A DNA stretch of 64,000 nt, taken from positions 1-64,000 of the forward strand of contig JADQBR010000015.1 in assembly GCA_016278515.1 (NCBI GenBank), in the 5' to 3' direction. The notes below the pieces were generated by a model that saw nothing but the letters and a program-made list of their open reading frames with translations, did not search any database and was not told the DNA's origin. The stretch comes from Bacillota bacterium (GTDB taxonomy: Bacteria > Bacillota > JADQBR01). The translations under genes were made by a program, and so were the position numbers. Position 1 is the stretch's first letter; each line of letters opens with the position of its first letter. Below are positions 6,596-59,816 of this stretch, piece by piece.

Positions 6596-7268
6596 TTTGC
6601 CTCTCCCTTAGCATATATCCAATGTTCCTGACGGTTTGTATTTCTAAATCAGCTGTGCCCTGAAGTTTCTTCCTTAAATAGTGTATATATATTTCTACAT
6701 TGGTTTCTAAAATATCCACATCATAGCCCCAAACTTTATTCAAAATCTGCTCCCGAGTAAAAACCTGTCCCGGCCTCTTCATAAACAGTTCCAGCAGTTT
6801 CCCTTCTTTTGCCGATAGATCAAATTGCTTATTTGCCACCTTTAAAACATAACTTTTACTGTCGTATTCAACGTTACCTAAAACCAAATTACCCATATCG
6901 TACCGGCTTCCCGTTCGTCTAGACAGGGAGCGAATCCTGGCAAACAATTCCTGAGTGGCAAAAGGTTTAACCAAATAGTCATCCGCTCCAATATCAAGTC
7001 CTTCCACTCTGTCTTCAAGAGCATCTCTCGCCGTCAATAATAAAACCGGTGTCGTGTTTCCAGTTTTGCGAATGGTTCTTAGAATTTCGAGGCCGCTTAT
7101 TCCGGGTAACATGATATCTAGAATGATTACATCGTATATCTCTCTTTGAGTAAGAATAAGACCAGTATCGCCATCATTGGCAACGTCAACATCCATCTTC
7201 TCTTTTCTTAGCAAGTAACCTAAGGCATCAGTTAGTTTGATCTCGTCTTCAACTAAAAGAATACGCAT
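6588..7268 (-). CDS. OmpR/PhoB-family response regulator
   Basis: A 226-residue regulator: receiver domain (ILLVEDE, acceptor Asp in VIILDIMLPG near residue 51, LLTARD, VKPF) and a winged-helix DNA-binding domain (FDLSAKEGKLLELFM, VWGYDVDILETNVEIYIHYLRKKL). It follows the ABC permease gene by 26 bases and overlaps the kinase gene, so it is in one operon with the efflux genes it likely controls. Confidence 0.92.
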   Translation of the reverse strand: MRILLVEDEIKLTDALGYLLRKEKMDVDVANDGDTGLILTQREIYDVIILDIMLPGISGLEILRTIRKTGNTTPVLLLTARDALEDRVEGLDIGADDYLVKPFATQELFARIRSLSRRTGSRYDMGNLVLGNVEYDSKSYVLKVANKQFDLSAKEGKLLELFMKRPGQVFTREQILNKVWGYDVDILETNVEIYIHYLRKKLQGTADLEIQTVRNIGYMLRERQNV

Positions 7269-7294
7269 ACTTTCACTTTCACCTCTTAATGTTC

Positions 7295-8467
7295 TTATTC
7301 AAAGCGTAAGGCATCGACCGGTTTCAGTTTCGAAGCCTTATTTGCCGGATAAATGCCAAAAAACATGCCTACAACCAACGAGAAGGACAGTGCTAGTAAT
7401 AATACGGAAAAAGTAGTTTTTGTATTCATCCCGACTGCCAAAGTTAATAACTTATTACCACCGATCCCTACCAGGACACCCATAATGCCTCCCATGCCGC
7501 TGATAACCGCCGATTCAATTAAAAACTGTGATAAGATATCCTTCCTCCTAGCACCAATTGCCTTTCGAATACCAATTTCTCTTGTTCTTTCCGTAACAGT
7601 TACCAGCATAATATTCATTATACCAATTCCGCCTACCAACAAGGAAATTGCAGCAATGCCGCCTAACATCAAGGCCATACTCTGGGTTACTTGATTTACT
7701 GTGGACAGCATTTCAGACTGATTAAAAATATTGTATGCATTGTCATCATTTTTAAATTTTTTCAATAGGTACTGTTCAACTTGTACATTGACCGAATTTA
7801 CTAATTCAGGAGACTCGGCCTGGATGTAAACACTACGGATACCCTCTGATTTCAAAAACCTTTGAGCCGTAGTAATAGGCATCAATATTTTTTCGTCGTT
7901 ACTTCCGCCCATTGAACTGCCCTTTTCCTCCAGCACTCCAACAACCGTAAAGTTTAAACCGTCAAGCTGAACTATTTTGCCCATAGGATCTTCTGACCCG
8001 AAGAGCTCTTTTACTACTTCCGAACCGATAACAATTATCTTCTGCCTGTACTCGATATCCAAAGGTAAAACAAACCTGCCACGTTGTACCTTATGGTTTC
8101 GCACGCTCTGATAGTTTTCATCTGCACCTTCCAGTGACACATCCATCGTTTTAGTTTCATACTTTGCGGTAACATTTCCATTGACAATTGGCGCCGCTCC
8201 GTCCACACCATCTTTATTAGCTAACTCCTTAACTTCGTCATAAGTTAGGCTGCTAGCTGCTCCCCTACCTCTGATAGAAACTGTCAGAAGGTTGGTTCCC
8301 ATACTTTCAATATTTTCAGTAACACTTTCAGTTGTTCCTTGCACCACAGATACTAAAATGATTACAGCGGATACACCTATGATGATACCCAGCATAGTAA
8401 GGAACGTCCTCATTTTATTCCCGACAATCCCTTTTAAAGCCAGCTTTATTGCCATTTTAAAGTTCAT
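7295..8467 (-). CDS. MacB/FtsX-type ABC transporter permease
   Basis: The permease subunit of a MacAB-like system. An N-terminal membrane helix (LTMLGIIIGVSAVIILVSVV) precedes a MacB_PCD extracellular domain of about 200 residues, and three helices at the C-terminus include the signature GIGIMNIMLVTVTERTREIG and RRKDILSQFLIES. The start at the ATG 8467 has a GGGGTGA ribosome site; a GTG nine bases upstream is the alternative. It lies 12 bases after the ATPase stop. Expected to work as a mechanotransducing exporter with the adaptor and ATPase encoded upstream, perhaps for a peptide, antibiotic or bacteriocin; substrate unknown. Confidence 0.9.
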   Translation of the reverse strand: MNFKMAIKLALKGIVGNKMRTFLTMLGIIIGVSAVIILVSVVQGTTESVTENIESMGTNLLTVSIRGRGAASSLTYDEVKELANKDGVDGAAPIVNGNVTAKYETKTMDVSLEGADENYQSVRNHKVQRGRFVLPLDIEYRQKIIVIGSEVVKELFGSEDPMGKIVQLDGLNFTVVGVLEEKGSSMGGSNDEKILMPITTAQRFLKSEGIRSVYIQAESPELVNSVNVQVEQYLLKKFKNDDNAYNIFNQSEMLSTVNQVTQSMALMLGGIAAISLLVGGIGIMNIMLVTVTERTREIGIRKAIGARRKDILSQFLIESAVISGMGGIMGVLVGIGGNKLLTLAVGMNTKTTFSVLLLALSFSLVVGMFFGIYPANKASKLKPVDALRFE

Positions 8468-8478
8468 TACCGTCACCC

Positions 8479-9140
8479 CTACTCCATAATCAACCCATCC
8501 TGGATTGAAATTTTTCTTTCTGCACTGTTGGCAACGTCTAAATCATGGGTGATAAGTAGCACCGTTCTCCCATTTCTGTTTAGCTCCTTTAAAATATCCA
8601 TTACCTCTGTCCCCGACTTTGAATCCAGGTTTCCAGTCGGTTCATCTGCTAAAACCAATTTCGGATCTCCGGCTAAAGCACGTGCTATGGCAACTCTCTG
8701 CTGCTGACCGCCTGACATTTCCGCCGGTTTATGGCGTGCCCAATCAGTTAAACCTACCTGCTCCATGGCCTGAAAAGTTTTTTCTTTTCGCGCTTTTGGG
8801 TTTAAACCTCGATATATTAGCGGCAATTCGATATTTTCATAGGCGCTAAGCCTTGGTAAAAGGTTAAACTTTTGAAAAACAAAGCCTATTTTTTTATTCC
8901 TAATTTCAGCCAACTGATTTTCCGTAAGTTACTCACTTCAGTTTCTTCAAAGTAATATTCGCCTGCAGTGGGTGTGTCTAAACAACCTATTATATTCATA
9001 AAAGTTGATTTTCCCGAGCCGCTGGGTCCAATAATTGCAACAAATTCCGCATCATCCACTGTTAAGCTTACTCCCTTTAAAGCTTCAAACTTTATTGCTC
9101 CGGTGTGGTATACTTTGGTAACATTATGAATTCTAAGCAT
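8479..9140 (-). pseudogene. MacB-type ABC ATPase, single-base frameshift
   Basis: ATP-binding subunit of the MacB-like exporter, split by one missing base. From the ATG at 9140 (ribosome site GGAGG) the N-terminal half carries the Walker A motif GPSGSGKST and ends in-frame shortly after EVSNL. The second half resumes one frame over at TENQLAEIRNKKIGFVFQ, with Q-loop, signature MSGGQQQRVAIARAL, Walker B VLADEPTGNLD and the switch His in LITHDLD. The shift falls near 8923-8930, where one extra A (AACTTAACGG instead of AACTTACGG on the coding strand) would restore a normal protein. All catalytic motifs are intact, so this may be a sequencing error or a very recent mutation rather than old decay. 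Confidence 0.85.
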
Positions 9141-9144
9141 TTTG

Positions 9145-10752
9145 TTACCTCCCTCCACTACCCTGGGGTCTTTCGCCTCCACTTGACCTAGTCCCGCCAA
9201 ATCTCATCATATTGAAATTAGGTCCTTGTTGGTTTTGTGCGGCCCCGACAATTGGGTAGACTACCTTATCACCTTCATTTAGACCCTCGATGATTTCCAC
9301 ATAGTTTTCCGAAACAAGACCAACCTTGACGGGAATCATGTCCTGCCCCTGCTTTAAACTCTTTGCAGAACTCGGTATGACAAATTTTTGATTGCCACGC
9401 TGTTGAATAGCCTCAATGGGAAGCAGCAGCGCATCCTCTTTCTTTGAAGAGATAATTTCTGCATTTGCTGTCATACCAGGCTTCAAACCATTACCCTCAC
9501 TTAAACTTATCGTTACATCGAAAGTAGCGACTCCACCGGTAGAACTGCCTTCTAAGGCAATTTCTGACACTTTCGCTTTATAAGTCTTTTGAGAACCAGC
9601 CTCTACGGCAGCTGTTGCCTCCTGTCCAACCTTTACCTTGTTTATATCCAATTCATCTATGGGAATTATTACTTCCAGATTTTCTAAGTCGGACACAACC
9701 GCAACAACGGCATTGTCTCGCACGCTCTCGCCACTTGTCACATTAACCTTGGTGATTGTACCGGAGATAGACGCGTGTATCGCATTATTATCCGTATTCT
9801 TAAGCTTTTCGCTTAAATCCAGCTGCGCTTCCTGCACTTTTATTTCCTGATCAGCAATTTGAGTGTATAAATCCTCATTCTGCATTTCCGCTATTAGTTC
9901 GCCTGCTTCTACGTACTCACCCTCTGAAACATTCAGTTTAGTTAGAGTACCGCCGGTGGACAGTTCAACCTTATACGGTATTTTAGCGGTTAATCCGCCA
10001 TTCTCTACAGCAGAAAAACTCCCGTTTTCATTATCGATTACCATTTGAACCTGCATACCGGGAGTATATCCGCCAGGATTATCAATTTCCAAAGTCACAT
10101 CGTATAAAACAGCTCCATTTTCATTGGAACTCGGTGCATCATTGACCTTTATTACCTTCCCCGCTACTGTCTGGTAATTGTATAACATGAGGACCTTAGC
10201 CTCATCTCCGACTTTAACACTGTTTATTTGGTTCTTATTAAACTTGCCAATTACCTCCATTTTGGAACTATCCGTTATGGTAGTAAATAATCCTTTACTG
10301 ACCTGCTCCCCGACGTTAGCCTTAATTTCTCCCAATACTCCCGAACTGGGAGCATAGACTTTAAGACTATTTAAGTCTTCCTGCAAATCTTTCAGTCGTT
10401 TTTCGGCCGCCGTAACATTTAGTTTTGCCCGTTCAATGGTGGTGTTCTTGGTATCGTCTTCAAACGTAAGTATTAGATCTCCTTCCTTGACTGATTGCCC
10501 CTCTTCCACATAAATTTTGTCAACAGTACCACTATTAATTGTCATTACTTCTTTTCGTACGCTAGGTTGAATACTGCCGGTTCCCCCTGCCGTAACCTGA
10601 ATACTGCCTCTCTGCACCTCAGCTGTAGCATTTTGAACAGCATCTGTTTCAGCTGCATCCGTTTTCGGAGAATATAACTTAAGAAATATTCCCCCTGCTA
10701 CAATGAGAAAAATGAATCCAAATATACCATACTTAAAATACTTACTTCTCAT
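9145..10752 (-). CDS. MacA/HlyD-like adaptor with tandem barrel-sandwich modules
   Basis: Membrane fusion protein, 535 residues, anchored by an N-terminal helix (YGIFGFIFLIVAGGIFL). It is longer than usual because the lipoyl-like barrel-sandwich plus beta-barrel unit occurs twice: the first at about 45-235 (SGTVDKIYVEEGQSVKEGD ... YTPGMQVQM) and the second at about 240-440 (LTKLNVSEGEYVEAGE ... LKPGMTANAEI). Each has its own short helical hairpin segment. The C-terminus is Gly/Gln/Arg-rich. First gene of the efflux operon, it ends 5 bases before the ATPase start. In a Gram-positive it would act as an extracytoplasmic partner of the permease. Confidence 0.88.
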   Translation of the reverse strand: MRSKYFKYGIFGFIFLIVAGGIFLKLYSPKTDAAETDAVQNATAEVQRGSIQVTAGGTGSIQPSVRKEVMTINSGTVDKIYVEEGQSVKEGDLILTFEDDTKNTTIERAKLNVTAAEKRLKDLQEDLNSLKVYAPSSGVLGEIKANVGEQVSKGLFTTITDSSKMEVIGKFNKNQINSVKVGDEAKVLMLYNYQTVAGKVIKVNDAPSSNENGAVLYDVTLEIDNPGGYTPGMQVQMVIDNENGSFSAVENGGLTAKIPYKVELSTGGTLTKLNVSEGEYVEAGELIAEMQNEDLYTQIADQEIKVQEAQLDLSEKLKNTDNNAIHASISGTITKVNVTSGESVRDNAVVAVVSDLENLEVIIPIDELDINKVKVGQEATAAVEAGSQKTYKAKVSEIALEGSSTGGVATFDVTISLSEGNGLKPGMTANAEIISSKKEDALLLPIEAIQQRGNQKFVIPSSAKSLKQGQDMIPVKVGLVSENYVEIIEGLNEGDKVVYPIVGAAQNQQGPNFNMMRFGGTRSSGGERPQGSGGR

Positions 10753-10904
10753 TAAATTTCACCTCCAAGCTTTTCCTCACTATATTACTGAATAAATCTT
10801 AAGGTTTTCTTAAAAGCTTTAGTATTTGAAATTAAATTGCATTATTAGAAAAACCATTTCCTTCCCCAATGAAAAAACTAAGATAAAAAGGAGTACAGAA
10901 CAAA

Positions 10905-10937
10905 AAGAAAGCCGGAACACAGTGAGTTCCAGCTTTA
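10905..10937 (-). terminator. Terminator after the oxidoreductase gene
   Basis: An imperfect stem (AAAGC-GGAAC with GTTCC-GCTTT, about 10908-10936) followed on the minus strand by TCTTTTTG. It closes the cooS-cooF-oxidoreductase operon. Confidence 0.7.
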
Positions 10938-10949
10938 AGAAGGAGGTTT

Positions 10950-12200
10950 TTAACTTATGATTGAACTGTAACCAAAACTTTCCTTAAGCAGTTGCTGCTT
11001 GAATTTGGTCACAGGTACTTTCTTTTTAATCAATGCTGCGTAAACACCAGCCCTCCGAATATCACCAACAAATATCATTCCTTTAAGAATATCATCTTTT
11101 AATATCAGCTTTCTATAATAATTCAGGTGAGGCCTGTGAATTACCATTTCCTCACAATCATCGGGGGTGCGAGTCAAACCTATGGCAATGGCAGGTACAT
11201 TTCTAAACTCTACAGAGTTTTGCATGCCTATCATTTTTGAATACTTACGTGTCTGACCAACCATATTCAATCCGGCCATGCGTCCCTGTACTATTGCATT
11301 AGGCCAAATTGGCGACAGCCCCAATTCACCGCTGACAACATCGACAGTTTCGGCGACATCGCCTGCTGCATATATGTTGGGCACATTTGTCTCCATGTAC
11401 TCATTTATTTCAATGCCCCGATTAACCTTGATTCCTGTCTTATCCGTTAAACCGACATTTGCTCTTGTTCCGGTAGCGACCACCACGAGTTCACATTTTA
11501 ACCGTTCACCACTGTCCAATAAGACACCTTTACCCGTCTTGTTAAATAACCGATTCCAGAGGGAGGGCCCGGCAATTTCCTTAATGCCATCGCCAGTAAT
11601 AATTCTAATGCCCTCTGCCTGCATATCATTGCGCAGGATTGCTGCTGCTTTGACATCAAACTGACCCGGTACAATTTGGGAAAGTCTTTCAACCACTGTA
11701 ACTTCCAACCCTAGTGAGTATAAAGAATATGCAGCCTCTAAGCCAACAAAACCACCGCCAACTACAACAACTCTTCTTGCTTTCTTTGCTGCCTCTTTAA
11801 TGCCGACAGCATCATCTAAATTTCTTAAATTAAAAATGCCGGACTCATCAATGCCTTTAATAGGCGGCACGAAAGCTGAACTACCCGTTGCAATCAACAA
11901 TTTATCATATGATACCGTATGCCCATCGCCTAGATATACTTTTTGGTTCTCAGAATCAATATCTACTGCTTTTTTCCCGAACATGGTAGCTACATTATTG
12001 CGGCCATAAAAATTTGCAGACTTGAATAAAATTGTTTTTTCCGATCGCTCCCCTGCCAAATAATCGGGAAGCAGGCAGCGTGAATAAGCGGCATGAGGTT
12101 CATCTGAAATAATAACAATGTTACCTGCACTATCATATTTTCGAATAGTCTCGGCAGCCTGAGTTCCGGCAGCACTATTGCCAATAATAACGTATTGCAA
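10950..12200 (-). CDS. FAD/NAD(P)-dependent oxidoreductase of the CODH cluster (FNOR)
   Basis: A pyridine nucleotide-disulfide oxidoreductase family flavoprotein of about 416 residues. It has an N-terminal FAD-binding site (IGNSAAGTQAAETIR), a second dinucleotide fold for NAD(P) (VVVGGGFVGLEAAYSL near 150) and the FAD-contacting IYAAGDVAE near 275. No redox-active CxxxxC pair is seen, which fits the NADH oxidase/ferredoxin reductase branch. The TTG at 12200 is taken as start because GGAGG lies 8 bases upstream; an in-frame GTG at 12209 overlaps that site. As last gene after cooS and cooF it is inferred to pass electrons from CO oxidation via the ferredoxin to NAD(P)+ or to an oxidant. Confidence 0.85.
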   Translation of the reverse strand: MQYVIIGNSAAGTQAAETIRKYDSAGNIVIISDEPHAAYSRCLLPDYLAGERSEKTILFKSANFYGRNNVATMFGKKAVDIDSENQKVYLGDGHTVSYDKLLIATGSSAFVPPIKGIDESGIFNLRNLDDAVGIKEAAKKARRVVVVGGGFVGLEAAYSLYSLGLEVTVVERLSQIVPGQFDVKAAAILRNDMQAEGIRIITGDGIKEIAGPSLWNRLFNKTGKGVLLDSGERLKCELVVVATGTRANVGLTDKTGIKVNRGIEINEYMETNVPNIYAAGDVAETVDVVSGELGLSPIWPNAIVQGRMAGLNMVGQTRKYSKMIGMQNSVEFRNVPAIAIGLTRTPDDCEEMVIHRPHLNYYRKLILKDDILKGMIFVGDIRRAGVYAALIKKKVPVTKFKQQLLKESFGYSSIIS

Positions 12201-12227: not shown

Positions 12228-12719
12228 CTAACTAGCTTCTGTTAAAGCTTTAGCAGTCTTAGTCAATTTTTCTTGTGTAAATGTTTTACCGTCAACATAT
12301 AGTAAAGCCCCTGTATGGCAGGATTCCACACAGGCAGGCACCTCTCTACCATTACATTTATCACATTTAATAGCTATCCCTTCTTCTTCATTTGGCTGAA
12401 TGGCTCCATAGGGACAAGCCATAATACACATCCAGCAGCCAATACAACTCTGGTCATTGTTTTCATTACTGACAATACCAGTCTCCTTATCCTTTTGCAT
12501 TGCCCCAGTCATACATGCATCTACGCATGTAGGTTCCTCACAATGACGGCACATTAATGGCACGGCTTTCCCATTAACCGCTTCGACAGAAATTCTCGGT
12601 TGAACCTTTTCAAGCATTGCTCCCACTATATCCTTGGAAGAGGAATGTTCTGCCGCACAAGCCAGAGTGCAAGTGAGACAGCCGGTGCACTTATCTATAT
12701 CAACAAAAATTTGTTTCAC
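12228..12719 (-). CDS. cooF: CooF-like polyferredoxin
   Basis: An iron-sulfur electron carrier of about 163 residues with four cysteine groups: CTGCLTCTLAC, CRHCEEPTCVDAC, CIGCWMCIMACPYG and CDKCNGREVPACVESC, enough for four [4Fe-4S] clusters as in CooF, the electron acceptor of carbon monoxide dehydrogenase. The start is the GTG at 12719, 7 bases after GGAGG; an upstream ATG at 12737 overlaps the ribosome site. It lies between cooS and the flavoprotein gene in one operon, with a hairpin in the gap after cooS. Confidence 0.9.
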   Translation of the reverse strand: MKQIFVDIDKCTGCLTCTLACAAEHSSSKDIVGAMLEKVQPRISVEAVNGKAVPLMCRHCEEPTCVDACMTGAMQKDKETGIVSNENNDQSCIGCWMCIMACPYGAIQPNEEEGIAIKCDKCNGREVPACVESCHTGALLYVDGKTFTQEKLTKTAKALTEAS

Positions 12720-12743
12720 TATTGTCCCTCCTAGCATTTATTT

Positions 12744-12772
12744 TTGAGAACTGGCATAAAGCCAGTTCTCAA
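12744..12772 (-). terminator. Intercistronic hairpin between cooS and cooF
   Basis: A perfect 12-bp stem (12744-12755 with 12761-12772) with a 5-base loop, followed on the minus strand by AAAAATAAATG. The short T content suggests partial termination or 3'-end protection of the cooS message rather than full termination. Confidence 0.55.
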
Positions 12773-12795
12773 TTTATCAAGGGTGAGAGATTACA

Positions 12796-14697
12796 CTAAA
12801 TTCCTAAGCCTTGACGTTTCTTCTCTATATGAGCCAACATCTTCTCAACAGCCTTTACCGGGTCTTCTTCTACCAGCACTTTTCCACCAGTAAGTCCTTC
12901 GATATCTTCGGTAAGAACTTTTGTTACCAATGGACTGCCCGTTACAGGCGGTACAGGTCCGAGATGAGTTAATAAGCCAAAGGATACTGCGAAGATGCCA
13001 TCAGCTATAGCCTTTTGCTCTAGATACTCTGGTGCTGATGCAACAACCGGAAGTTGACTCGGGTCTACTCCCAATGCACCGGCAATCGCTGTCACTGCCG
13101 CACCAATTCTACCGATGTCAACACAAGACCCAAAGTTTAATACCGGCGGCACACCTAAAGCATTACATACTGCTTTTAGTCCGTCGCCCGCTTGATCGGC
13201 GGCCGATGGCAGCATAAGACCTTCTATTTCCGCCCCGCTGCTCATACAACCGGCAGCAATAACTAATACGTCATTCTTAATGAATTCTTTCATAATAGTT
13301 AAGCCTTTATCGTCGTGTCCGTTTCTATTGTTAGTACAGCCGACCACTGCAGCAATCCCCTTAATGTTGCCCTTTTTAATCTCGTCAAGTAATGGGTCTA
13401 AACTGCCTCCCAATGCTCCAAGAATAGACTCTACAGAAAACCCTGCTACTGCAGCAGATTTATGGCCAGGTATTTGTACTTTGCCTTTATCTCTTTTCTT
13501 GTAGGTGTCAACAGCCATTTTTACTAATTCCTTGGCCTGTTCCTCTACTTTTTCTGGATCATAGTCAACATTGTCCTTAACACCCTCCATACGGAGAATA
13601 CGGTCAACAGAGACCAACTTAGTATGAAATTTGTCCGCTACTGATTTCATGCCGGGAATTGAGCAGTTCATATCCATCATAACTAAATCTATTGCACCAG
13701 TTGCAATGTGGTGTTCTTGACTTAACCAGTTACCCAACTGCCCTGAATAATTAGAAGCAGTAGTTCCTTTCCTTTGCATCAATTCTTGTCCGGTACACAT
13801 TGAACCGTAGACTTTAATCCCGTTTGCTCCAGCCTCTTTTGCATACTTTATCATCTCATCACTTTCAATAGCCCCAAGTACTGCAGTAGCTACCAGAGGA
13901 ACGTGCCCGTGAGCGACAATATTCACTGTATCTGGATCAATTATTCCTAAGTCCGCCTCACTTTCCGTTACCTCAGGGGTACCCAGTAGGATGTCTTGTA
14001 AAGTGACTGTTGCTACTAATCCTGTATAGCCTGTGGCGATAGATAACCGCAGTGATGTTAGCAGTAAATCAATTGGATCAGTGTTGATATTTGACATAGT
14101 TTTTGTCAATGCATCTCTAATTTCCGAATGCACGCCACCAGGGATAACCCCCAGTTCTCTCCAGACTTTTTTCCTCGTTTCTGGCGCGAACAATTCTAAC
14201 ATCGCTAAAGGTTCCCCCGAGTCCTTCCGCAGATCGGATAGAATAACGTCTGCAAGCTGCTCAGCCAATTCATTGGCTGTTTTGTTTAGGTCTAGACCGG
14301 CAACTTTGGCAATTTCCCTTAACTTTCCTTCATCCTGTATCTTATATGGAGTTTTCCCGTTAGCAGTTGCCTTAATTGTTTTAGCCAATTCCTCTAAATG
14401 ATGAGAATAAGCCGCTACTCCGTGGGTAGTTAGCCGCACCAAATTCCTTGCGACAATTGTATCGGCAGACGCACCGCATATTCCTTTAGAGGCTTTTGGA
14501 GTAATCCTACACGGGCCATGGCTGCAAAGCTGGCAACAAACTCCCTGCATACCGAAACCACATTGAGGTTGTTGTTTTTCGTAGCGTGTAAAAACAGTAT
14601 CTACTCCCATGTCATCTAATCTCTCTTGCATCTGGTTAACTGTTTCATGCGCAGAATAGCAATTATCTACACTTGGACAGGTTTTACAATCGCTCAT
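12796..14697 (-). CDS. cooS: Anaerobic Ni-Fe carbon monoxide dehydrogenase catalytic subunit
   Basis: CooS, 633 residues, the normal length. It oxidises CO to CO2 with water at a [Ni-4Fe-4S] C-cluster. The N-terminal cysteine groups for the B and D clusters are visible as FGMQGVCCQLCSHGPCRI near residues 47-65. Further conserved segments are VAHGHVPLV (catalytic His), GSMCTGQELMQRKG, DMNCSIPGM, VVGCTNNRNGHD, AAGCMSSGAE and LNFGSCVDIGR, which together carry the C-cluster ligands. The ATG at 14697 has an AGGAGG site. It heads the cooS-cooF-flavoprotein operon. There is no acetyl-CoA synthase or CooC maturation gene nearby, so this is a stand-alone CODH for redox rather than carbon fixation; that last point is inference. 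Confidence 0.95.
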   Translation of the reverse strand: MSDCKTCPSVDNCYSAHETVNQMQERLDDMGVDTVFTRYEKQQPQCGFGMQGVCCQLCSHGPCRITPKASKGICGASADTIVARNLVRLTTHGVAAYSHHLEELAKTIKATANGKTPYKIQDEGKLREIAKVAGLDLNKTANELAEQLADVILSDLRKDSGEPLAMLELFAPETRKKVWRELGVIPGGVHSEIRDALTKTMSNINTDPIDLLLTSLRLSIATGYTGLVATVTLQDILLGTPEVTESEADLGIIDPDTVNIVAHGHVPLVATAVLGAIESDEMIKYAKEAGANGIKVYGSMCTGQELMQRKGTTASNYSGQLGNWLSQEHHIATGAIDLVMMDMNCSIPGMKSVADKFHTKLVSVDRILRMEGVKDNVDYDPEKVEEQAKELVKMAVDTYKKRDKGKVQIPGHKSAAVAGFSVESILGALGGSLDPLLDEIKKGNIKGIAAVVGCTNNRNGHDDKGLTIMKEFIKNDVLVIAAGCMSSGAEIEGLMLPSAADQAGDGLKAVCNALGVPPVLNFGSCVDIGRIGAAVTAIAGALGVDPSQLPVVASAPEYLEQKAIADGIFAVSFGLLTHLGPVPPVTGSPLVTKVLTEDIEGLTGGKVLVEEDPVKAVEKMLAHIEKKRQGLGI

Positions 14698-42567: not shown

Positions 42568-43572
42568 TCACCCTCCAACCTTTCTAGAGCTTTCCTCATC
42601 CTTTACCTTATGATCAGGAAGTTTTCCTGTAAAACCACCACCGATTCTGACCGGAACACTCATATTACACTTTGATAAAAGATTGGCTCGATCCATTATT
42701 CTTTCCAGGGAAGGCGGTTCCATGTCCTTTAACCGATAATCTACTTCAAGATTTTTATAGGTTTCTACACCCAAGCGATGATAAGGCAGCAGCTCTATCT
42801 CTTTAAGCTTATGGATAGACTTGCAAAATTCACCAACTGCTAATAGGTTTGCATTAGAATCATTTATCCCCGGAATTAAAGGAATGCGTACGATTATTTC
42901 CACCGGATATTTTGATTGGTCGATTCTTCGAATGTTATCATGTATTAGTGAATTACCAGTCCCAACCCACTCTTTATGGTTTCTCTGATCCATGTGTTTA
43001 ATGTCGACAAAGAGAACATCGAGCCAGGGTAAAACCTTTTCAATGCTCTTCCACGGAGCATGAAGGGCGGTTTCAATGGCCGTGTGTATCCCGCGTTCTT
43101 TGCATTCCCGCAATACTTCAGAAGTAAAATCCGGCTGATTTAAAGGTTCTCCGCCGCTGATGGTAACACCACCGCCTGAGTGAAAGAAAAAAATCTCATC
43201 TTTGGTGATCTCGCGTACCACCTCTGCCACGGACATAAAGCTTCCGTATTGTTTCATTGCTCTCTGAGGGCATTTCGCTACACAAAGAAAGCATTTTTGG
43301 CATTTGGAGGAATCGGTGCATACCTTCTGCCTGTCTGCAGAAAAGGAAAGAGCTCCCTCCGGACATGAGCGAACACATACTCCACATCCTATACAACGTT
43401 CCCTTGCATACCCTTTTTCTGGATCGGAACGTTGAGATTCAGGCGTTGAACACCAGCGGCATCTCAAGGGACACCCTTTAAGAAAAAGTACCGTGCGGAG
43501 CCCCGGCCCGTCGTGAATGGAAGTCCTCTCGATCCTAAGCACTGATCCTTTAACATCTGAGCCATTTTTCAT
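42568..43572 (-). CDS. Glycyl radical enzyme activase (radical SAM)
   Basis: A 334-residue radical SAM enzyme. The SAM cluster motif CPLRCRWCSTPES is followed by an inserted ferredoxin-like domain with two cluster motifs (CIGCGVCVRSCPEG and CQKCFLCVAKCPQ), typical of activases of dehydratase/decarboxylase-type glycyl radical enzymes. GGGVTISGGEP is the SAM-binding GGE motif. It makes the glycyl radical on the enzyme encoded upstream. The ATG at 43572 follows GGTGGGG, which sits at the edge of the structured repeat; a longer in-frame start would read into the repeat. Confidence 0.92.
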   Translation of the reverse strand: MKNGSDVKGSVLRIERTSIHDGPGLRTVLFLKGCPLRCRWCSTPESQRSDPEKGYARERCIGCGVCVRSCPEGALSFSADRQKVCTDSSKCQKCFLCVAKCPQRAMKQYGSFMSVAEVVREITKDEIFFFHSGGGVTISGGEPLNQPDFTSEVLRECKERGIHTAIETALHAPWKSIEKVLPWLDVLFVDIKHMDQRNHKEWVGTGNSLIHDNIRRIDQSKYPVEIIVRIPLIPGINDSNANLLAVGEFCKSIHKLKEIELLPYHRLGVETYKNLEVDYRLKDMEPPSLERIMDRANLLSKCNMSVPVRIGGGFTGKLPDHKVKDEESSRKVGG

Positions 43573-43587
43573 TAATATCACCCCACC

Positions 43588-43775
43588 TAAAGCGAAAACT
43601 TGCATCAGATGGGGGTTTTATACCCATCTGATGTTTAGTTAAGCCTATCCAGAAGCTTAGCGCCACTTATCCCATTTAGATTGGGGACATTCCTGCCCCC
43701 CAGTAGATAACCTAGGCTTTAGCAGGTGTGTCCCCTTTCCTTAACTGGGGGATATTAGTGGCGGTTAGCTATCGG
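43588..43775 (-). repeat. Structured dispersed repeat, copy 2
   Basis: Same element as at 21925-22109, read on the minus strand. The outer stem, inner GGGGACA/TGTCCCC stem and 3' hairpin are kept despite base changes; for example GTGGTG in copy 1 is GTGGCG here, still pairing with CGCCAC. It lies between the glycyl radical enzyme and its activase and supplies the enzyme gene's last six codons and TAA stop. Its far end abuts the activase ribosome site. Confidence 0.85.
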
Positions 43776-46163
43776 AGAAATACCGTGTTGTATAGTACGT
43801 CCAATAATATCATCCTGCACATCTTTTCCAAGTTCCACGAAGTAGGCAGTATAACCGGCCACTCGCACCAGTAATCCTCTGTATTCATCAGGATTTTTCT
43901 GAGCACGAATTAATTTTTGCTGATCAATCACATTAAACTGAACATGATACACTCCCAGGCTGCACATACTTTTCAACAGAGCCATCATCTGCGTGATTCC
44001 ATTTTCGGTAGATAGCATAGCGGGCTCTACCTTCATATTTAGAAGGGTACCCTGTACGAAGCGGCCGTGAGGGATATTTGCTACTGATTTCAACACTGAA
44101 CTCGGCCCATTAAAATCCGTTCCGCCGCTGGGACTGACACCGTCTGCCAGCGGCTTCCACGCCTTGCGACCGGAGGGTAAGGCACCCACCTCAAGCCCAA
44201 ATGGCGTGTTGCCGGATACGGGGAGTATCCCAGGAGTCATACGCCCGAATTTACTACTGTATTTTTCAATCTCATCGGCGATAAAGGTGAACATATCTCC
44301 CGCTATATCATCCACCACTTGGTCATCGTTACCGTACTTAGGCGCATCAGTACACAGCTTCTGTATTTCCTCATACCCCTCAAAGTCTCGGTCCAAGGCA
44401 TCCAACAACTCTGCCATGGTCGCTTGTTTAGTATCAAAAACAACGTGCCGGACTGCGGCCATACTGTTAATCAAGTCCGCTACACCGATTAAAATAATTC
44501 CGTTTCCTGTGTTGTATTTTGCTCCGCCCCAGGCATAGTCTTTAGCCTTCTCTATACACTCCTTGAATGTAAATGAAAGGGCAGGGACCGGTCGATTCAT
44601 GCCGACTTCGTCTATCACATGGTTTGCTTTCACAACGGCACGCGTTGCATACTGAATGTGTTCCTTAACTGCAGCGACAAAATCATCGTATGTTTCAAAT
44701 TCCTCCGGGCTTCCCGTACGTGCTGAAACATATTTACCACTCTTCCTGCTTTTACCGTCTAGAAGCCCAAATTCCACCATACTCCCCAGATTTATATCAG
44801 CAAGTGCTGTGTAGTGGCGCAAACGCCCCTCTAGGTTGGTTTCCACGCAGCCGCACGGGTTCCAATTATAGGCCTCCCTCAGGGGAATTCCCTTGTTCAT
44901 AAGCATCCTAATTCCCACGTCATCGTTGTGGAAAGCGGGGAAGCCGGTTCCAAGACTAACTAACTCAACAACTTTTCTCAGAAAAGAGTTAGGATTCTTG
45001 GCCAGGCTATAACGAACCGACAAAGACGGCTGATAAAGCTGAACGTCCATTGTTGCCTGAATAATCATGTATGACAGGTCGTTGACAGCGTCTCGCCCAG
45101 CATCATCCACTCCTCCGACACAAACATTTTGAAACATTGGATAACCCGCAGCGAACTCCGCCGTTGTTGCGTCTTGAAAGAGGCATGGCTCGCTAAACTT
45201 AACCCAAAGACAGTCAAGAAGCTCTTGAACTTCTTCCACTGCAATGCGTCCACTTTCAATATCAGACTTATAATAAGGCCAGAGATACTGATCCATACGT
45301 CCAGGGTTATAGCTTGCAGCGTTCTGTTCCATGAAAACACTAATCTGATAAAAATATAAGGACTGCAAAGCTTCCCTAAATGTCCGTGCTGGATTTGCGG
45401 GAACATGCCGGCAAATTCCTGCAATCTCCAAAAGTTCTTTTTTCCTCTGCGAGTCTTTTTCTGTGGACGCTAGACGATCAGCTTCCTCGGCATATCGTTC
45501 TGCCAAACTAATCATCCCTTCCGCTACAATCAAAAGAGATTTCAGATAGTAATCCTTTTCATAATCACCTGGTACGGTTAGATCCAGTTCTGCTCTTCTT
45601 TTTTTCACCGCTTTTACGATTCCCAAAACTCCTTCGGAAATAAGCCATTGGTAACCCGCAGTAGTCTCTCCCCATCCACGCACTGCCTTACGGTCTATGT
45701 ATATCACGCCATTATCCCGAAGTTCCCGTGTGTCGTCTGGAATTTGGGCGAGCCATTCCTCATAGTTAGAGCGCCCTTTCCAATAAGGGCGAATTTCTTC
45801 CTCGAAAATCCTTCGTTCCTCAGATTTCAAATAAAAGGGGTCATAACGACGCTCACTAATAGTCTCCAGTTCATCATCCAGCACGGACCAACACGTTTCA
45901 GCGTTTAGAATACCGGCGCGCATCTTGCTTCCGGAAGAACCGATAATCAGTTCGTCATCCCATATCTTAACGGTCTTTTCCACGCACTGTTTACGAAATG
46001 CCTTAGCTTTACGTACAACAAGCGGTTCACCTTCGGTCTCTTTGAAGCTCTCAGTTAGAATTCGTGCGTTCTCTAAGTCCATCTCAGGTCGAGTCCCGAG
46101 CACTCTATTCTTTAGTCGATGCACCCGATCCATATATTTTGGCTCATTTTCTATTTTGGACAT
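43755..46163 (-). CDS. Glycyl radical enzyme, dehydratase/decarboxylase class
   Basis: An 802-residue pyruvate formate-lyase-like enzyme. The active-site loop reads NPCGCVETN, with catalytic Cys and nearby Glu (CxE) near residue 437, as in dehydratases and decarboxylases rather than the Cys-Cys of formate lyase. The glycyl loop is VRVAGYTAYF, Gly near 768. The CVET motif is the one in trans-4-hydroxy-L-proline dehydratase HypD, and a proC-like remnant three genes on fits a hydroxyproline route, but other substrates such as arylacetates cannot be excluded. The last residues PIANRH are encoded by the repeat inserted at the 3' end. GGAGG precedes the ATG at 46163. Confidence 0.88.
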   Translation of the reverse strand: MSKIENEPKYMDRVHRLKNRVLGTRPEMDLENARILTESFKETEGEPLVVRKAKAFRKQCVEKTVKIWDDELIIGSSGSKMRAGILNAETCWSVLDDELETISERRYDPFYLKSEERRIFEEEIRPYWKGRSNYEEWLAQIPDDTRELRDNGVIYIDRKAVRGWGETTAGYQWLISEGVLGIVKAVKKRRAELDLTVPGDYEKDYYLKSLLIVAEGMISLAERYAEEADRLASTEKDSQRKKELLEIAGICRHVPANPARTFREALQSLYFYQISVFMEQNAASYNPGRMDQYLWPYYKSDIESGRIAVEEVQELLDCLWVKFSEPCLFQDATTAEFAAGYPMFQNVCVGGVDDAGRDAVNDLSYMIIQATMDVQLYQPSLSVRYSLAKNPNSFLRKVVELVSLGTGFPAFHNDDVGIRMLMNKGIPLREAYNWNPCGCVETNLEGRLRHYTALADINLGSMVEFGLLDGKSRKSGKYVSARTGSPEEFETYDDFVAAVKEHIQYATRAVVKANHVIDEVGMNRPVPALSFTFKECIEKAKDYAWGGAKYNTGNGIILIGVADLINSMAAVRHVVFDTKQATMAELLDALDRDFEGYEEIQKLCTDAPKYGNDDQVVDDIAGDMFTFIADEIEKYSSKFGRMTPGILPVSGNTPFGLEVGALPSGRKAWKPLADGVSPSGGTDFNGPSSVLKSVANIPHGRFVQGTLLNMKVEPAMLSTENGITQMMALLKSMCSLGVYHVQFNVIDQQKLIRAQKNPDEYRGLLVRVAGYTAYFVELGKDVQDDIIGRTIQHGISPIANRH

Positions 46164-53344: not shown

Positions 53345-54019
53345 CTATAACAACTTGTAAGTAATAGTGACCAATGAACCGTCGGGCGGTAAAAGATCTT
53401 TGTTTCCGGTAAAGCCTACTTCTTTACGTTTTTCCACTGCTCCGTAAGTATAGGCGGCGTTGCTGGTAATCCCTACCGGGCAGCTGTCCAGGCAGATAAG
53501 ACAGCCGGTCTTTTTATCCCTAGCGGTCTCAATATTCCCACCGAATCTAATTATAATTGGGTTATCATTGCTATCATTTATAACTTCATCAAGTTTATAA
53601 TCTTTCCCAGCGCCCTGCCAGGATACTGTGATCATAAATTTGTCGCCTTGGACGTGAGTGGTTTCTTTGTTATCCATTGTCATATTATTGCCGGGCTTAA
53701 CTCCTATTTCCATTAGAGAATTGTAAAGGTTTTCTGGTTCTGCTAGTCCACGGAAAATAGCCTTTTCTCCGTTTGATCCACCCTGAAAAACAGCCGCATG
53801 TCGGGTTGGCTCATATAAATACTTGCCATTAACCTGAGCCAGCATTGTAACTGTACCAGCTTCCTTATTCACTTTGATAGGGTTTCCCTCAGTCAAACCA
53901 TTTAGACTTAAGAATGCTTTATCAGCACCCGTTTCTTCATTGCCCATAGTACAGCCTGCTAATATAGCCAATCCTATTACCAAACATCCTAATAATGTCC
54001 ATGTAAGAAACCTTTTCAC
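53345..54019 (-). CDS. YdjY-type domain lipoprotein with a cysteine pair
   Basis: A 224-residue lipoprotein: signal peptide ending ILAGC, then a domain with KVNKEAGTVTMLAQVNGKYL, ENLYNSLMEIGVKPGNNM and FMITVSWQGAGKDYKL, typical of YdjY-like domains that accompany ferredoxin-type redox proteins. Near residue 175 is GCLICLDSCPVG, a CxxC...C group that could bind metal or form a disulfide. The GTG at 54019 after GGGGAG is the start; an earlier ATG lacks a site. A redox role is a guess. Confidence 0.75.
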   Translation of the reverse strand: MKRFLTWTLLGCLVIGLAILAGCTMGNEETGADKAFLSLNGLTEGNPIKVNKEAGTVTMLAQVNGKYLYEPTRHAAVFQGGSNGEKAIFRGLAEPENLYNSLMEIGVKPGNNMTMDNKETTHVQGDKFMITVSWQGAGKDYKLDEVINDSNDNPIIIRFGGNIETARDKKTGCLICLDSCPVGITSNAAYTYGAVEKRKEVGFTGNKDLLPPDGSLVTITYKLL

Positions 54020-54298
54020 AAAAATCTTCTCCCCTTCTATTAGTTCAAATGAAGTATCTCGATTTGCCACCCTGCCCGGTCGCTTCTCAAGAATGAATAA
54101 CCTGTCTTATGTCTCCTGCTAACATTTTTCTTATCACCTCCATCTATTTTTTATTTATTCGAATTCTAACTATAAATACCTTTTATATGTATGATAAAAT
54201 ATTACATAGTTCTTATGGGAAAACATAAGGAAATTTTATTGACTGAATGAAACATTGAAACCCAAAAACAAAAAATTATTCAAAGGAGGAATTAAAAC

Positions 54299-56437: not shown

Positions 56438-56794
56438 ATGACTGATAAAGTCTATCATTTATCTAAAGTAGACAGCTTAGCTGAATTAAATATGGAAGAG
56501 TTAAAGGAAGTAGCATCAAACTTTTTTTGGGAAGAGTATCATCCTAAGGATGACATTATTATTCAAGGTCGGGAACACAATTTCTTTTACGTTCTGGTTG
56601 CGGGCCAGGTTGAAGTTTTGGACAACCAAAGGAGTGGACAAACAAGAATAAATACCTTTGGTCCGGGAGATACTTTCGGCGCCAGGTCCTTACTAACCAG
56701 CGGCCCAGCCCCTTTCACTGTTCGATGCTTAAACGATTGCAAAGTTTTAGTAATGTCAGCAGACCAGTTCGGCTATGCTTGCGCGCTAGCCTAA
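56438..56794 (+). CDS. CRP-like cNMP-binding domain, N-terminal part of a frameshifted fusion
   Basis: The first 118 codons encode a cyclic-nucleotide-binding-type beta-roll (FFWEEYHPKDDIIIQGREHN, YVLVAGQVEVL, GPGDTFGARSLLTSGPAPF, VLVMSADQF) and then run into a stop. In the next frame the expected helix continues as PKLYKKFIERLSRNL, joined to the AAA-polyferredoxin part. Removing one base near 56789 (CTAGCC to CTACC) restores one protein of about 717 residues. No DNA-binding helix-turn-helix follows the CRP fold. The ligand could be a nucleotide or simply a regulatory surface. Confidence 0.8.
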   Translation: MTDKVYHLSKVDSLAELNMEELKEVASNFFWEEYHPKDDIIIQGREHNFFYVLVAGQVEVLDNQRSGQTRINTFGPGDTFGARSLLTSGPAPFTVRCLNDCKVLVMSADQFGYACALA

Positions 56795-58589
56795 ACTTTA
56801 TAAAAAGTTCATTGAAAGACTTTCCCGCAATTTAGACCAAATAAACATCGGCCTTACGGAGGCAAGGAATAAACAGTTTTTGCACACGTTATTACAAAAT
56901 ACTCAGTACGAAAATAAATTCTATGGCCTTTGGGGTGGTCCCGCAACCACCAGATTAATGGAGAAGAAACTGACTGAATTGGCCAAAAGCAAAGAGTGTT
57001 TGCTTTTAATTGGCGAGCGGGGCACAGGGCGGCAGATGGCCGCTTGGGATCTGCATAAACGCCTTTTTGAAGAAGGTGCTCCTTTTGTCGTTATCGATGC
57101 TCTTGATCTTGAAAAACAATGGGGAAATCTACTCTTCGAACCTGAAATACCTGGTGATCTTTTGCCAAGAAGCGGCAGTCTTTTGGAATATGTAGACGGG
57201 GGTACGCTGGTTATAAAAGAAATTAACAAGCTGTCGTCTAAGGCCCAACTGCAGTTGGCCGAGGCAATGCGAACCCATAGAAATTGCCTTGTTGTCGGAT
57301 GCTTACAGAAAGACCCTGAGCAGACTATGGAAATCTTAATACCCGGACTGCTGGAATCGTTTGCCGATCGTTTTACCATTAAACCTTTACGAAAGCGCAA
57401 GCGGGACATCCCATTTCTAGTACAGGGTGTATTAGAAAAATTAGCCGAACAGCATAACCGAAAAACGCCCAGCTTGGAGCATGAAGCCACAAAAATATTA
57501 CTATCCCATAATTATCGACAAGGTAATGTGACAGAGCTGATTCAAGTAATAGAACGATCCTTTTTTCTAGCCGAAAATGATGTAATCGGTCTTGAACACG
57601 TTTTCTTTGGCCCTACTGCTAAAAAGTTGGGCGGCACTTTTGATTTATTGTCTTTCTCATGGTTGGAGAAAATAATTAAAGAAGGCTCATTCGTAATATG
57701 GTCCCAGCGCTTAGTGGCAGTTACATTCCTTTTTATCATTGCGCTCTTGTTTGCAGTGCCACAAGCAGCAATTGATATCGGTTTATTTGTATTAGTCTGG
57801 GGTCTCTGGTGGCCTGCGTTGGCAATAATATCTCCTTTTTTAGGTAGGATTTGGTGTACCGTTTGTCCTTTCGGCTATATTATGGAAATTGTGCAAAATA
57901 AACTTCATTTACATCGACCGGTACCTGACTGGCTAAAAAAATACAATTATTTAGTAATCACGTTTCTATTTGCTCTGATTTTTTGGCTGGAGATTGTTTT
58001 TCACATGCGCTCCAACCCGATACTGACTGCAGTGTTACTAACAACAATTTTGGGAGCCGCTGCTCTCACCGGCATTATTTTTGTGCGACACGCCTGGTGC
58101 CACCATTTATGCCCGCTTGGGGGTTTTGTGGGCATGGCATCCATCGGAGGCATATTGGAGGTCCGTTCTAACCCTGAGGTCTGTCTTAATAAGTGCACCA
58201 CCTTTGAATGCTACAAGGGCACTCCCCAAATAACGGGCTGCCCCATGTCCCAATATGCTCCATATCTGGATAATAATCTGGACTGCAAACTTTGTTTCAG
58301 GTGTGCCCGCAACTGTCCCAATGGTTCCGTGAAAGTAAATCTAAGGATTCCGGGCAGGGAGATTTGGCACCTACTAAGAGTAAACCAAGGCTTTACAGTA
58401 TTTATCGGTGCTTCCTTAGCCATTTTAATTCCCATTCTTTATTTTGAGCCTTTACGCCAGGTCTGGCCGACGGGTATGTGGCTGTTGTACCATGCCAAGG
58501 GGACGTTTTGTTTGCCATATGGCAAACAAAACGTCCCCTTGGCCGATACGTCCCCTTGGCCGATAAACCCTCTAGTAATTGGTAATTAA
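56793..58589 (+). CDS. AAA and NapH-like membrane polyferredoxin part of a frameshifted fusion
   Basis: After a helix the protein has a domain like the AAA module of sigma-54 activators, but degenerate: Walker A reads GERGTGRQ (Lys to Arg), Walker B reads TLVIKEI (Asp-Glu to Lys-Glu), and the GAFTGA loop for sigma-54 contact is missing. Next come about five membrane helices with two CxxxCP motifs of the NapH/NosR/CcoG type (GRIWCTVCPFG and RHAWCHHLCPLG), a cysteine set CLNKCTTFECYKG, and a ferredoxin motif CKLCFRCARNCPNGS, then another helix. The C-terminus reads into a palindrome at 58494 and is probably truncated. It suggests a membrane redox sensor or electron carrier gated by a CRP/AAA-like regulatory region. 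Confidence 0.8.
   Translation, partial: KLYKKFIERLSRNLDQINIGLTEARNKQFLHTLLQNTQYENKFYGLWGGPATTRLMEKKLTELAKSKECLLLIGERGTGRQMAAWDLHKRLFEEGAPFVVIDALDLEKQWGNLLFEPEIPGDLLPRSGSLLEYVDGGTLVIKEINKLSSKAQLQLAEAMRTHRNCLVVGCLQKDPEQTMEILIPGLLESFADRFTIKPLRKRKRDIPFLVQGVLEKLAEQHNRKTPSLEHEATKILLSHNYRQGNVTELIQVIERSFFLAENDVIGLEHVFFGPTAKKLGGTFDLLSFSWLEKIIKEGSFVIWSQRLVAVTFLFIIALLFAVPQAAIDIGLFVLVWGLWWPALAIISPFLGRIWCTVCPFGYIMEIVQNKLHLHRPVPDWLKKYNYLVITFLFALIFWLEIVFHMRSNPILTAVLLTTILGAAALTGIIFVRHAWCHHLCPLGGFVGMASIGGILEVRSNPEVCLNKCTTFECYKGTPQITGCPMSQYAPYLDNNLDCKLCFRCARNCPNGSVKVNLRIPGREIWHLLRVNQGFTVFIGASLAILIPILYFEPLRQVWPTGMWLLYHAKGTFCLPYGKQNVPLADTSPWPINPLVIGN
58494..58564. repeat. REP-like palindrome with tandem 17-base repeat
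   Basis: A perfect 23-bp stem (58494-58516 with 58521-58543) around ATAT, its arms containing GGGGACGTTTTGTTTGCC. It is followed by a direct repeat of ACGTCCCCTTGGCCGAT at 58531-58547 and 58548-58564. Palindromes with GGGGACG arms resemble REP-type elements mobilised by TnpA-REP transposases. It sits in the last 30 codons of the polyferredoxin gene. Confidence 0.8.
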
Positions 58590-59705
58590 CAAATGTTTAG
58601 CATTTTTATCGTTCCTATCTTGAAAGCTAACTAAGTATTTCTTGTCAAAAAGCCTGAGGTTTAAGCCCTGGTTTGAATATAGGTTGCAGATAAAATCAGT
58701 ATTTTTTATAACAACCATGAATTTAGCCCGACATTGATTTATAAGATAGTTTGCTAGTCTTACTTGGTCGCTTTTATTAAACGCATTATTGACATAAGTA
58801 CTAAAATCACTATCATAAGGTGGGTCTATAAATATAAAATCATTTGAGCGGGGTTTGACCTCAGTTAGAAACTGTTCAAAATCCACATTTTGGAGATTAG
58901 TCATGTCTAAATGTTCATAAATTTCCTCACTTTCAAGGTACTTAATTTTCTTTGAGAAATCCTTTCTGTTATATGAAATTCCTCCATAAGGGACATTAAA
59001 TTTGCCTTCTGCATTATACCTGAACATAGAAGCATAACAATACTCCCTAATAAAATAAAAAATCGCTGTAGCAAAGCCTTCGTTAATTTTATACTCTTCT
59101 ATATTGTTGTATAAATATCTAAAATGCATATAAAAAGCGCTTTTCAAGGCGCACTCCAGGTTGCCTATAATATCTTTCTTGGGTAGTTTCCCTTTTTCAT
59201 GCTCTAATTTCTTCATCCGCTTAGTCTTATTGATGAAATTTTTTTTAATCTCATTGATAAAGTTTTCGGTAGCAATATTAAAGGAAGTGGTTAATTGTCC
59301 ATTAAAGTCATCTTCATTATGCAGTATGAATTCCGTAATCTTATCGTTAACTTTAGCATCAGAGTACCTTCCTGCGGAATAATTTTCATAAACTGCAGCC
59401 AGCCAATCTAGGCGGTTTTCAGTAATCTTTTCTAAGGCTATCCAACCTTTCCTGATATCCCATAGATGCGTAAAAAATTCTCGGTTTTTCTCCTTAATCA
59501 TTCTGTATAAATTCATTAGTTCTACAGATTTATCATTTATCCACATCTCTTGCAAATCCATGGCAAAATACACTGCTCCGCCGCCGACAAACGGGTCTAT
59601 ATATCTTTCCATATTTTTGGGTATATGGGGAAGAATATGCTTTAACTCATTTTCTTTACCCCCGGCCCATTTTAGAATTGGCGTTAATCTTTTAACTTTA
59701 GTCAC
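58572..59705 (-). CDS. D12-class DNA adenine methyltransferase, orphan
   Basis: An adenine-N6 DNA methyltransferase of about 377 residues. The SAM motif is ILKWAGGKENEL with FVGGGAVYFAM, and the catalytic motif is FIDPPYDSDFSTYVNNAFN near residue 292, as in Dam/DpnIIA-type (D12 class) enzymes. There is a larger than usual helical target-recognition region between them. No restriction endonuclease gene is adjacent, so it may act in regulation, protection or as a leftover. The GTG at 59705 has AGGGG 9 bases upstream; the ATG at 59714 touches that site. Confidence 0.88.
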   Translation of the reverse strand: MTKVKRLTPILKWAGGKENELKHILPHIPKNMERYIDPFVGGGAVYFAMDLQEMWINDKSVELMNLYRMIKEKNREFFTHLWDIRKGWIALEKITENRLDWLAAVYENYSAGRYSDAKVNDKITEFILHNEDDFNGQLTTSFNIATENFINEIKKNFINKTKRMKKLEHEKGKLPKKDIIGNLECALKSAFYMHFRYLYNNIEEYKINEGFATAIFYFIREYCYASMFRYNAEGKFNVPYGGISYNRKDFSKKIKYLESEEIYEHLDMTNLQNVDFEQFLTEVKPRSNDFIFIDPPYDSDFSTYVNNAFNKSDQVRLANYLINQCRAKFMVVIKNTDFICNLYSNQGLNLRLFDKKYLVSFQDRNDKNAKHLLITNY

Positions 59706-59816
59706 TGATTGCATCCCCTATAACTTTAATTTTACGACCATAACAAGTGCTAGAAAAAATATCTTTTGGAGGGCATATTTATGGTAAATGTATCACTATT
59801 TACCCGCTTGTGCCGT

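Follow-up and report, generated by a model that had tools for sequence, protein, structure and literature searches.

A fusion of CRP-like, pseudo-AAA and membrane polyferredoxin modules in anaerobic Firmicutes, with an apparently broken copy in a Bacillota genome

The window analysed here, a stretch of 64,000 nucleotides from a Bacillota contig, carries at 56438–58589 what reads as a broken gene, frameshifted and cut short, belonging to a conserved family that joins a CRP-like cNMP-type domain, a degenerate sigma-54-activator-like AAA module and a membrane polyferredoxin. Dozens of other anaerobic Firmicutes carry an intact version of the gene, a single open reading frame of about 790–860 residues that encodes the CRP-like domain, a long helix, the degenerate AAA domain and about eight predicted membrane helices. 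From its sequence the family may well be, at what we consider an even chance, a membrane electron carrier of the NapH/NosR/CcoG type controlled by its cytoplasmic CRP-like and pseudo-AAA module. The individual parts are known, and as far as can be told their combination with a conserved pseudo-AAA is undescribed, a search of open-licence papers having returned no description of a CRP, pseudo-AAA and membrane Fe-S architecture.

The broken window copy and its intact relatives

In the preliminary description the three modules were taken to form one protein. Their presence and consecutive order (cNMP-type domain, degenerate AAA with lid, Fer4_5 polyferredoxin) are borne out by Pfam (Table 1), but tblastn alignment with three intact homologues divides the window copy into two segments in different frames, meeting at about 56760–56776. 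The cNMP frame is terminated by a TAA at 56792–56794, and the AAA and polyferredoxin parts open in a different frame (56790–58589), in which matches to Sigma54_activ_2 (E 1.9e-10), Sigma54_activat (E 3.8e-8) and AAA_lid_14 (E 8.1e-14) are followed C-terminally by one to Fer4_5 (E 8.9e-9). A codon count between a conserved Phe and Pro finds the window 2 nt short of its homologues, in a stretch that includes GCGCGC. At the other end, homology to the family stops at about 58490, and tblastn with intact homologues detected no counterpart in the window of the last ~110 residues (TM6–TM8), whose place is taken by a dispersed repeat. The 25-nt unit of this repeat, GCCACGGGGACGTTTTGTTTGCCAT, together with its variants, has 27 matches in the genome at up to 3 mismatches, compared with 0 for the reversed control; it occurs mostly singly, with flanks that vary between copies, and is palindromic at the present site.

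Because a frame break is accompanied by a repeat replacing the last three membrane helices, the window copy is read as a broken gene, showing both marks of a pseudogene relative to intact homologues, the interrupted frame and the missing conserved part. The two lesions probably abolish function in this genome, and this organism probably does not produce a complete, working protein from the gene, a point that the preliminary description had missed. Decay appears to be recent, since the 12 cysteines and other invariant residues are preserved up to about 58490. The frame change could be an assembly error, an explanation less easily extended to the 3′ repeat. It is quite improbable that the locus is not broken at all and is served by a programmed frameshift or yields two separate working proteins. 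The second frame is indeed long, and its cysteines and other invariant residues are intact, yet nearly all other members consist of one continuous frame, while the window gene is damaged at both ends and lacks TM6–TM8; on these same grounds the variant with two working proteins was judged unlikely. Two other family members also look shortened or split (reading frames of 551 and 471 aa), so the gene may have been lost more than once in the family.

Table 1. Features of the broken gene in the window
Feature	Position	Strand	Basis
N-terminal cNMP/CRP-type ORF, 118 aa	56438..56794	+	cNMP_binding (PF00027) E 5e-18; 38-48% identity to intact members; TAA end
Frame-change site, cNMP frame meets AAA frame, GCGCGC inside	56760..56794	+	tblastn, three intact homologues
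Linker helix and degenerate AAA module	56790..57620	+	AAA core match 56958-57308; lid match 57390-57602
Walker A, GERGTGR (Lys to Arg)	57012..57032	+	alignment
Walker B region, GGTLVIKEIN (Asp to Lys at 57216-57218)	57198..57227	+	alignment
Sensor II, GNVTEL (Arg to Thr)	57522..57539	+	alignment
Polyferredoxin membrane module TM1-TM5, family homology stops at end	57640..58490	+	Fer4_5, hydropathy, tblastn
Cys motif 1, Cx2CP	57855..57869	+	alignment
Cys motif 2, Cx3CP	58098..58115	+	alignment
Cys motif 3, Cx3Cx4Cx9CP	58182..58244	+	alignment
Cys motif 4, Cx2Cx2Cx3CP, 4Fe-4S type	58284..58319	+	alignment
Perfect 2 x 25 nt palindrome of dispersed repeat, in place of last ~110 aa (TM6-TM8)	58494..58543	.	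repeat search, tblastn

Homologues with the same domain order were found as single open reading frames in many genomes: Thermincola MAGs have two paralogues, a Gracilibacter MAG has one, and many more come from other Bacillota; in the search of genome contigs a single-sequence query gave no match, and an alignment query reached the Thermincola and Gracilibacter genes. Every homologue aligning over the full length is a fusion, and intact motifs occur in none of them; a separate CRP and AAA gene coding for a functional activator, the case against which the preliminary description had staked its reading, did not emerge. In searches conducted within Bacillota, the full fusion or its broken form occurs in 13 of 398 genomes evenly sampled from the phylum (the window genome counted), in 28 of 46 genomes of one family, always as a single copy, and in 13 of 113 genomes of another order. 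When 48 members (window included), drawn from about ten Bacillota families, were placed in a tree, two clades resulted, one of 8 with the Walker A form GE[KE]GTGK, the other of 40 mainly with GERGTGR. The window copy belongs to the latter, where it has no near kin, its closest family member being 59% identical.

Inspection of genome neighbours, which the preliminary description had proposed, named no donor, acceptor or partner: beyond close relatives, no conserved neighbour of the fused gene emerged from 36 loci, and an operon-based argument for function was dropped for this reason. The block shared by Thermincola loci consists of unrelated genes, such as those for a tRNA nucleotidyltransferase and a nickel-insertion protein. 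In the window itself, a D12-class adenine DNA methyltransferase gene (58572–59714, minus strand) overlaps the tail of the broken reading frame with its 3′ end, and a lipoprotein-like reading frame that contains the motif CLICLDSC but matches no Pfam family (53345–54070, minus strand) lies 2.4 kb upstream of the broken gene. Further away, and judged from their translations only, are a carbon monoxide dehydrogenase-like reading frame of 633 aa with an adjoining ferredoxin-like one (12228–14697, minus strand) and a glycyl-radical-enzyme-like reading frame of 802 aa with an activase-like one (42568–46163, minus strand).

The pseudo-AAA module and the CRP-like domain

The AAA core and its bEBP lid are recognised in the family both by Pfam and by fold. 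In the AlphaFold model most of this domain has a pLDDT of about 70–88, and the top Foldseek matches of the model are NtrC1, DmpR and PspF. Comparison of 39 members with 16 ordinary sigma-54 activators from related genomes revealed how thoroughly the motifs of this lineage have been stripped. Even with one-letter variants allowed, GAFTGA occurs in none of the members and in all 16 controls, confirming its absence as first noted for the window copy, and the loop 2 insert is shortened in every member. The Walker B Asp is likewise replaced in all 39 (by Arg in 25, Lys in 7, Gln in 4, Asn in 2 and Gly in 1), the first Arg finger is kept in none and the second in one, and the sensor II Arg survives in a single member. 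The Walker A Lys has become Arg in 33 and is kept in 6. The claim of altered Walker A and B motifs holds in full for the window copy and, across the family, for Walker B; for Walker A it is true of most members, the Lys being kept in one clade and four other members. Retained are the motifs GE.G.G, GTL, LR.(R)K.D.P and N..EL, and a Cys stands beside the lost Arg finger in 27 of the 39 domains. Ten further members, some of them distant, display the same losses including that of GAFTGA, and the AAA changes, whose conservation the preliminary description had proposed to check, are conserved in the family; three of these ten still read GEKGTGKE, so that loss of the sigma-54 contacts and of the Walker B Asp need not accompany loss of the Walker A Lys.

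Purifying selection on this dead AAA is strong. Close orthologues show a median dN/dS of 0.09 for the AAA, 0.05 for the linker and 0.08 for TM1–4 with the Fe-S part, against 0.17 for the cNMP domain and 0.16 for TM5–8; a domain that did nothing would not be so constrained. The module should neither carry out ATP-powered remodelling nor contact sigma-54, judging from the combined loss of the Walker B Asp, GAFTGA, loop 2, the Arg fingers and the sensor II Arg. Some true sigma-54 activators also lack a helix-turn-helix. In known activators, sigma-54 is touched by the L1 and L2 loops, and it is the Walker and Arg-finger residues that power ATP turnover (PMC7175178). Pfam found no DNA-binding domain in the window copy, in line with the original description, and no helix-turn-helix in it or in four other members. 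A normal sigma-54 activator was rejected on the motif losses, and the statement that the protein is no transcription factor extends on the same grounds to the whole family as far as sigma-54 activation is concerned.

The CRP-like domain scores above the PF00027 cut-off in all scanned members and mostly retains the FGE motif. The phosphate-binding Arg of the CRP cassette is absent in 38 of 38 members and in 10 more, and the domain probably does not bind cAMP in the manner of CRP. In a comparison with solved structures, the best 60 matches include relatives of the AAA and cNMP parts only, those of the cNMP part being kinase subunits and channels.

The iron–sulfur module and the proposed function

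Twelve cysteines, arranged as Cx2CP, Cx3CP, Cx3Cx4Cx9CP and Cx2Cx2Cx3CP, are invariant in all 39 members; conservation of the 'CxxxCP motifs' is therefore upheld as regards the cysteines, but of the first two motifs just the second is a true Cx3CP, the first being Cx2CP. Fer4_5 exceeds its cut-off in most scanned members. Helix counts predicted from hydropathy are eight for a Thermincola member and between seven and nine for others; with short hairpins outside, the prediction puts every Cys loop on the same side of the membrane as the N-terminal domains. This topology rests on hydropathy, the polyferredoxin half of the AlphaFold model being of low confidence (mean pLDDT 58 overall).

As proposed here, the working end of the protein would be the NapH/NosR/CcoG-type module, which would draw electrons either from the quinone pool or from a donor in the cytoplasm and relay them via cytoplasmic 4Fe-4S clusters to an acceptor. 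A precedent is the suggestion that the NapH module acts as a quinol-oxidising unit (PMC5928378). The CRP-like domain and pseudo-AAA, on the same cytoplasmic side, would set the assembly or activity of the carrier, the former probably binding its ligand otherwise than CRP binds cAMP, the latter serving as an assembly platform that perhaps binds nucleotide without turning it over. Of the two options initially offered, a regulated electron carrier and a redox sensor, we favour the regulated carrier because the invariant chemistry resides in the Fe-S part, an output domain is lacking, and it is common for a cNMP domain to be fused to an enzyme or channel as its input. More tentatively, the family may represent an undescribed class of ligand-gated redox conduit, in which an activator AAA stripped of its ATPase and sigma-54 functions has been reused, together with a CRP-like domain, as an assembly or gating platform.

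The foremost competing possibility, which we regard as rather unlikely, is a redox sensor whose Fe-S part reads the quinone pool or the metal or redox state and whose pseudo-AAA and CRP-like domains pass the signal on to a partner protein, for instance by titrating a real sigma-54 activator. Such a role would suit N-terminal domains of a kind found in regulators, a loss of catalysis compatible with binding, the frequent Cys by the lost Arg finger, and a genome that encodes sigma-54 and many intact activators. However, the protein lacks any output domain, be it DNA-binding, kinase or other, its invariant chemistry sits in the Fe-S part and no conserved regulator adjoins the gene, while mixed rings with real activators are less likely once the Arg fingers and loops are lost.

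A metal reductase, in which the carrier would act at the membrane on copper or another metal under gating by the CRP/AAA part, appears unlikely, and draws on the free-standing polyferredoxin paralogues of the family. These are mostly 440–515 aa long, share about 32–34% identity with it, and in most of 11 loci adjoin small Met/His-rich or YtkA-like secreted proteins; in the window's own genome, one such paralogue has a heavy-metal P-type ATPase and a cytochrome b-type protein in its vicinity (contig 51, region 5886–11051). The free-standing loci suggest a copper-handling unit in anaerobes and are reminiscent of CcoG, a cupric reductase (PMC8267372). Against extending this to the fusion, no such neighbourhood is seen at the fused gene. 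Finally, a true if unusual activator of sigma-54 or sigma-70, resembling TyrR or DhaR, is scarcely credible, for although the AAA fold clearly belongs to that lineage, a membrane Fe-S part is attached, no helix-turn-helix is present, GAFTGA and loop 2 are gone in all members, and the Walker B Asp, Arg fingers and sensor II are lost.

Should the regulated-carrier reading be true, a dead AAA retained under strong selection and joined to a membrane Fe-S carrier would clearly exemplify the conversion of an activator module to a structural or gating role, and would do so in anaerobes that, like Thermincola, attract wide interest for their electron transfer. Since the AAA domain scores above the Pfam cut-offs, it is easy to annotate these genes as sigma-54-dependent regulators, a function that they should not have. 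The window locus also illustrates that a striking fusion read from one genome can be a broken copy whose intact form lies elsewhere.

Relation to known systems

With NapH, NosR, RdhC (PceC) and CcoG (Fer4_5, TIGR02163) the family shares two membrane-flanking CxxCP/CxxxCP motifs and cytoplasmic ferredoxin-type Cys clusters, the features that define this group. It is nevertheless distinct from NapH, NosR and CcoG in having about eight predicted membrane helices rather than 4–6, a Cx2CP as first motif, Cx3Cx4Cx9CP as motif 3 and no FMN domain, and in carrying the CRP-like and AAA domains. Members reach 39–42 bits with the NapH model TIGR02163 (cut-off 213), and the NosR model is absent among the matches listed for them. 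CRP/FNR proteins and other cNMP-binding domains have the β-roll, FGE motif and following long helix in common with the family, which differs from CRP/FNR in lacking the phosphate-binding Arg and helix-turn-helix. The bEBPs PspF, NtrC1, NifA and DmpR share the AAA core and lid by sequence and fold; in contrast to them, the family is devoid of GAFTGA, loop 2, the Walker B Asp, Arg fingers, sensor II Arg (with rare exceptions) and helix-turn-helix. TyrR, DhaR, HupR and VpsR are DNA-binding regulators without a membrane part. Like these GAFTGA-defective proteins (PMC3162934), the family combines a sigma-54-activator fold with the absence of sigma-54 contact, but it differs from them in being a membrane Fe-S protein without a DNA-binding domain.
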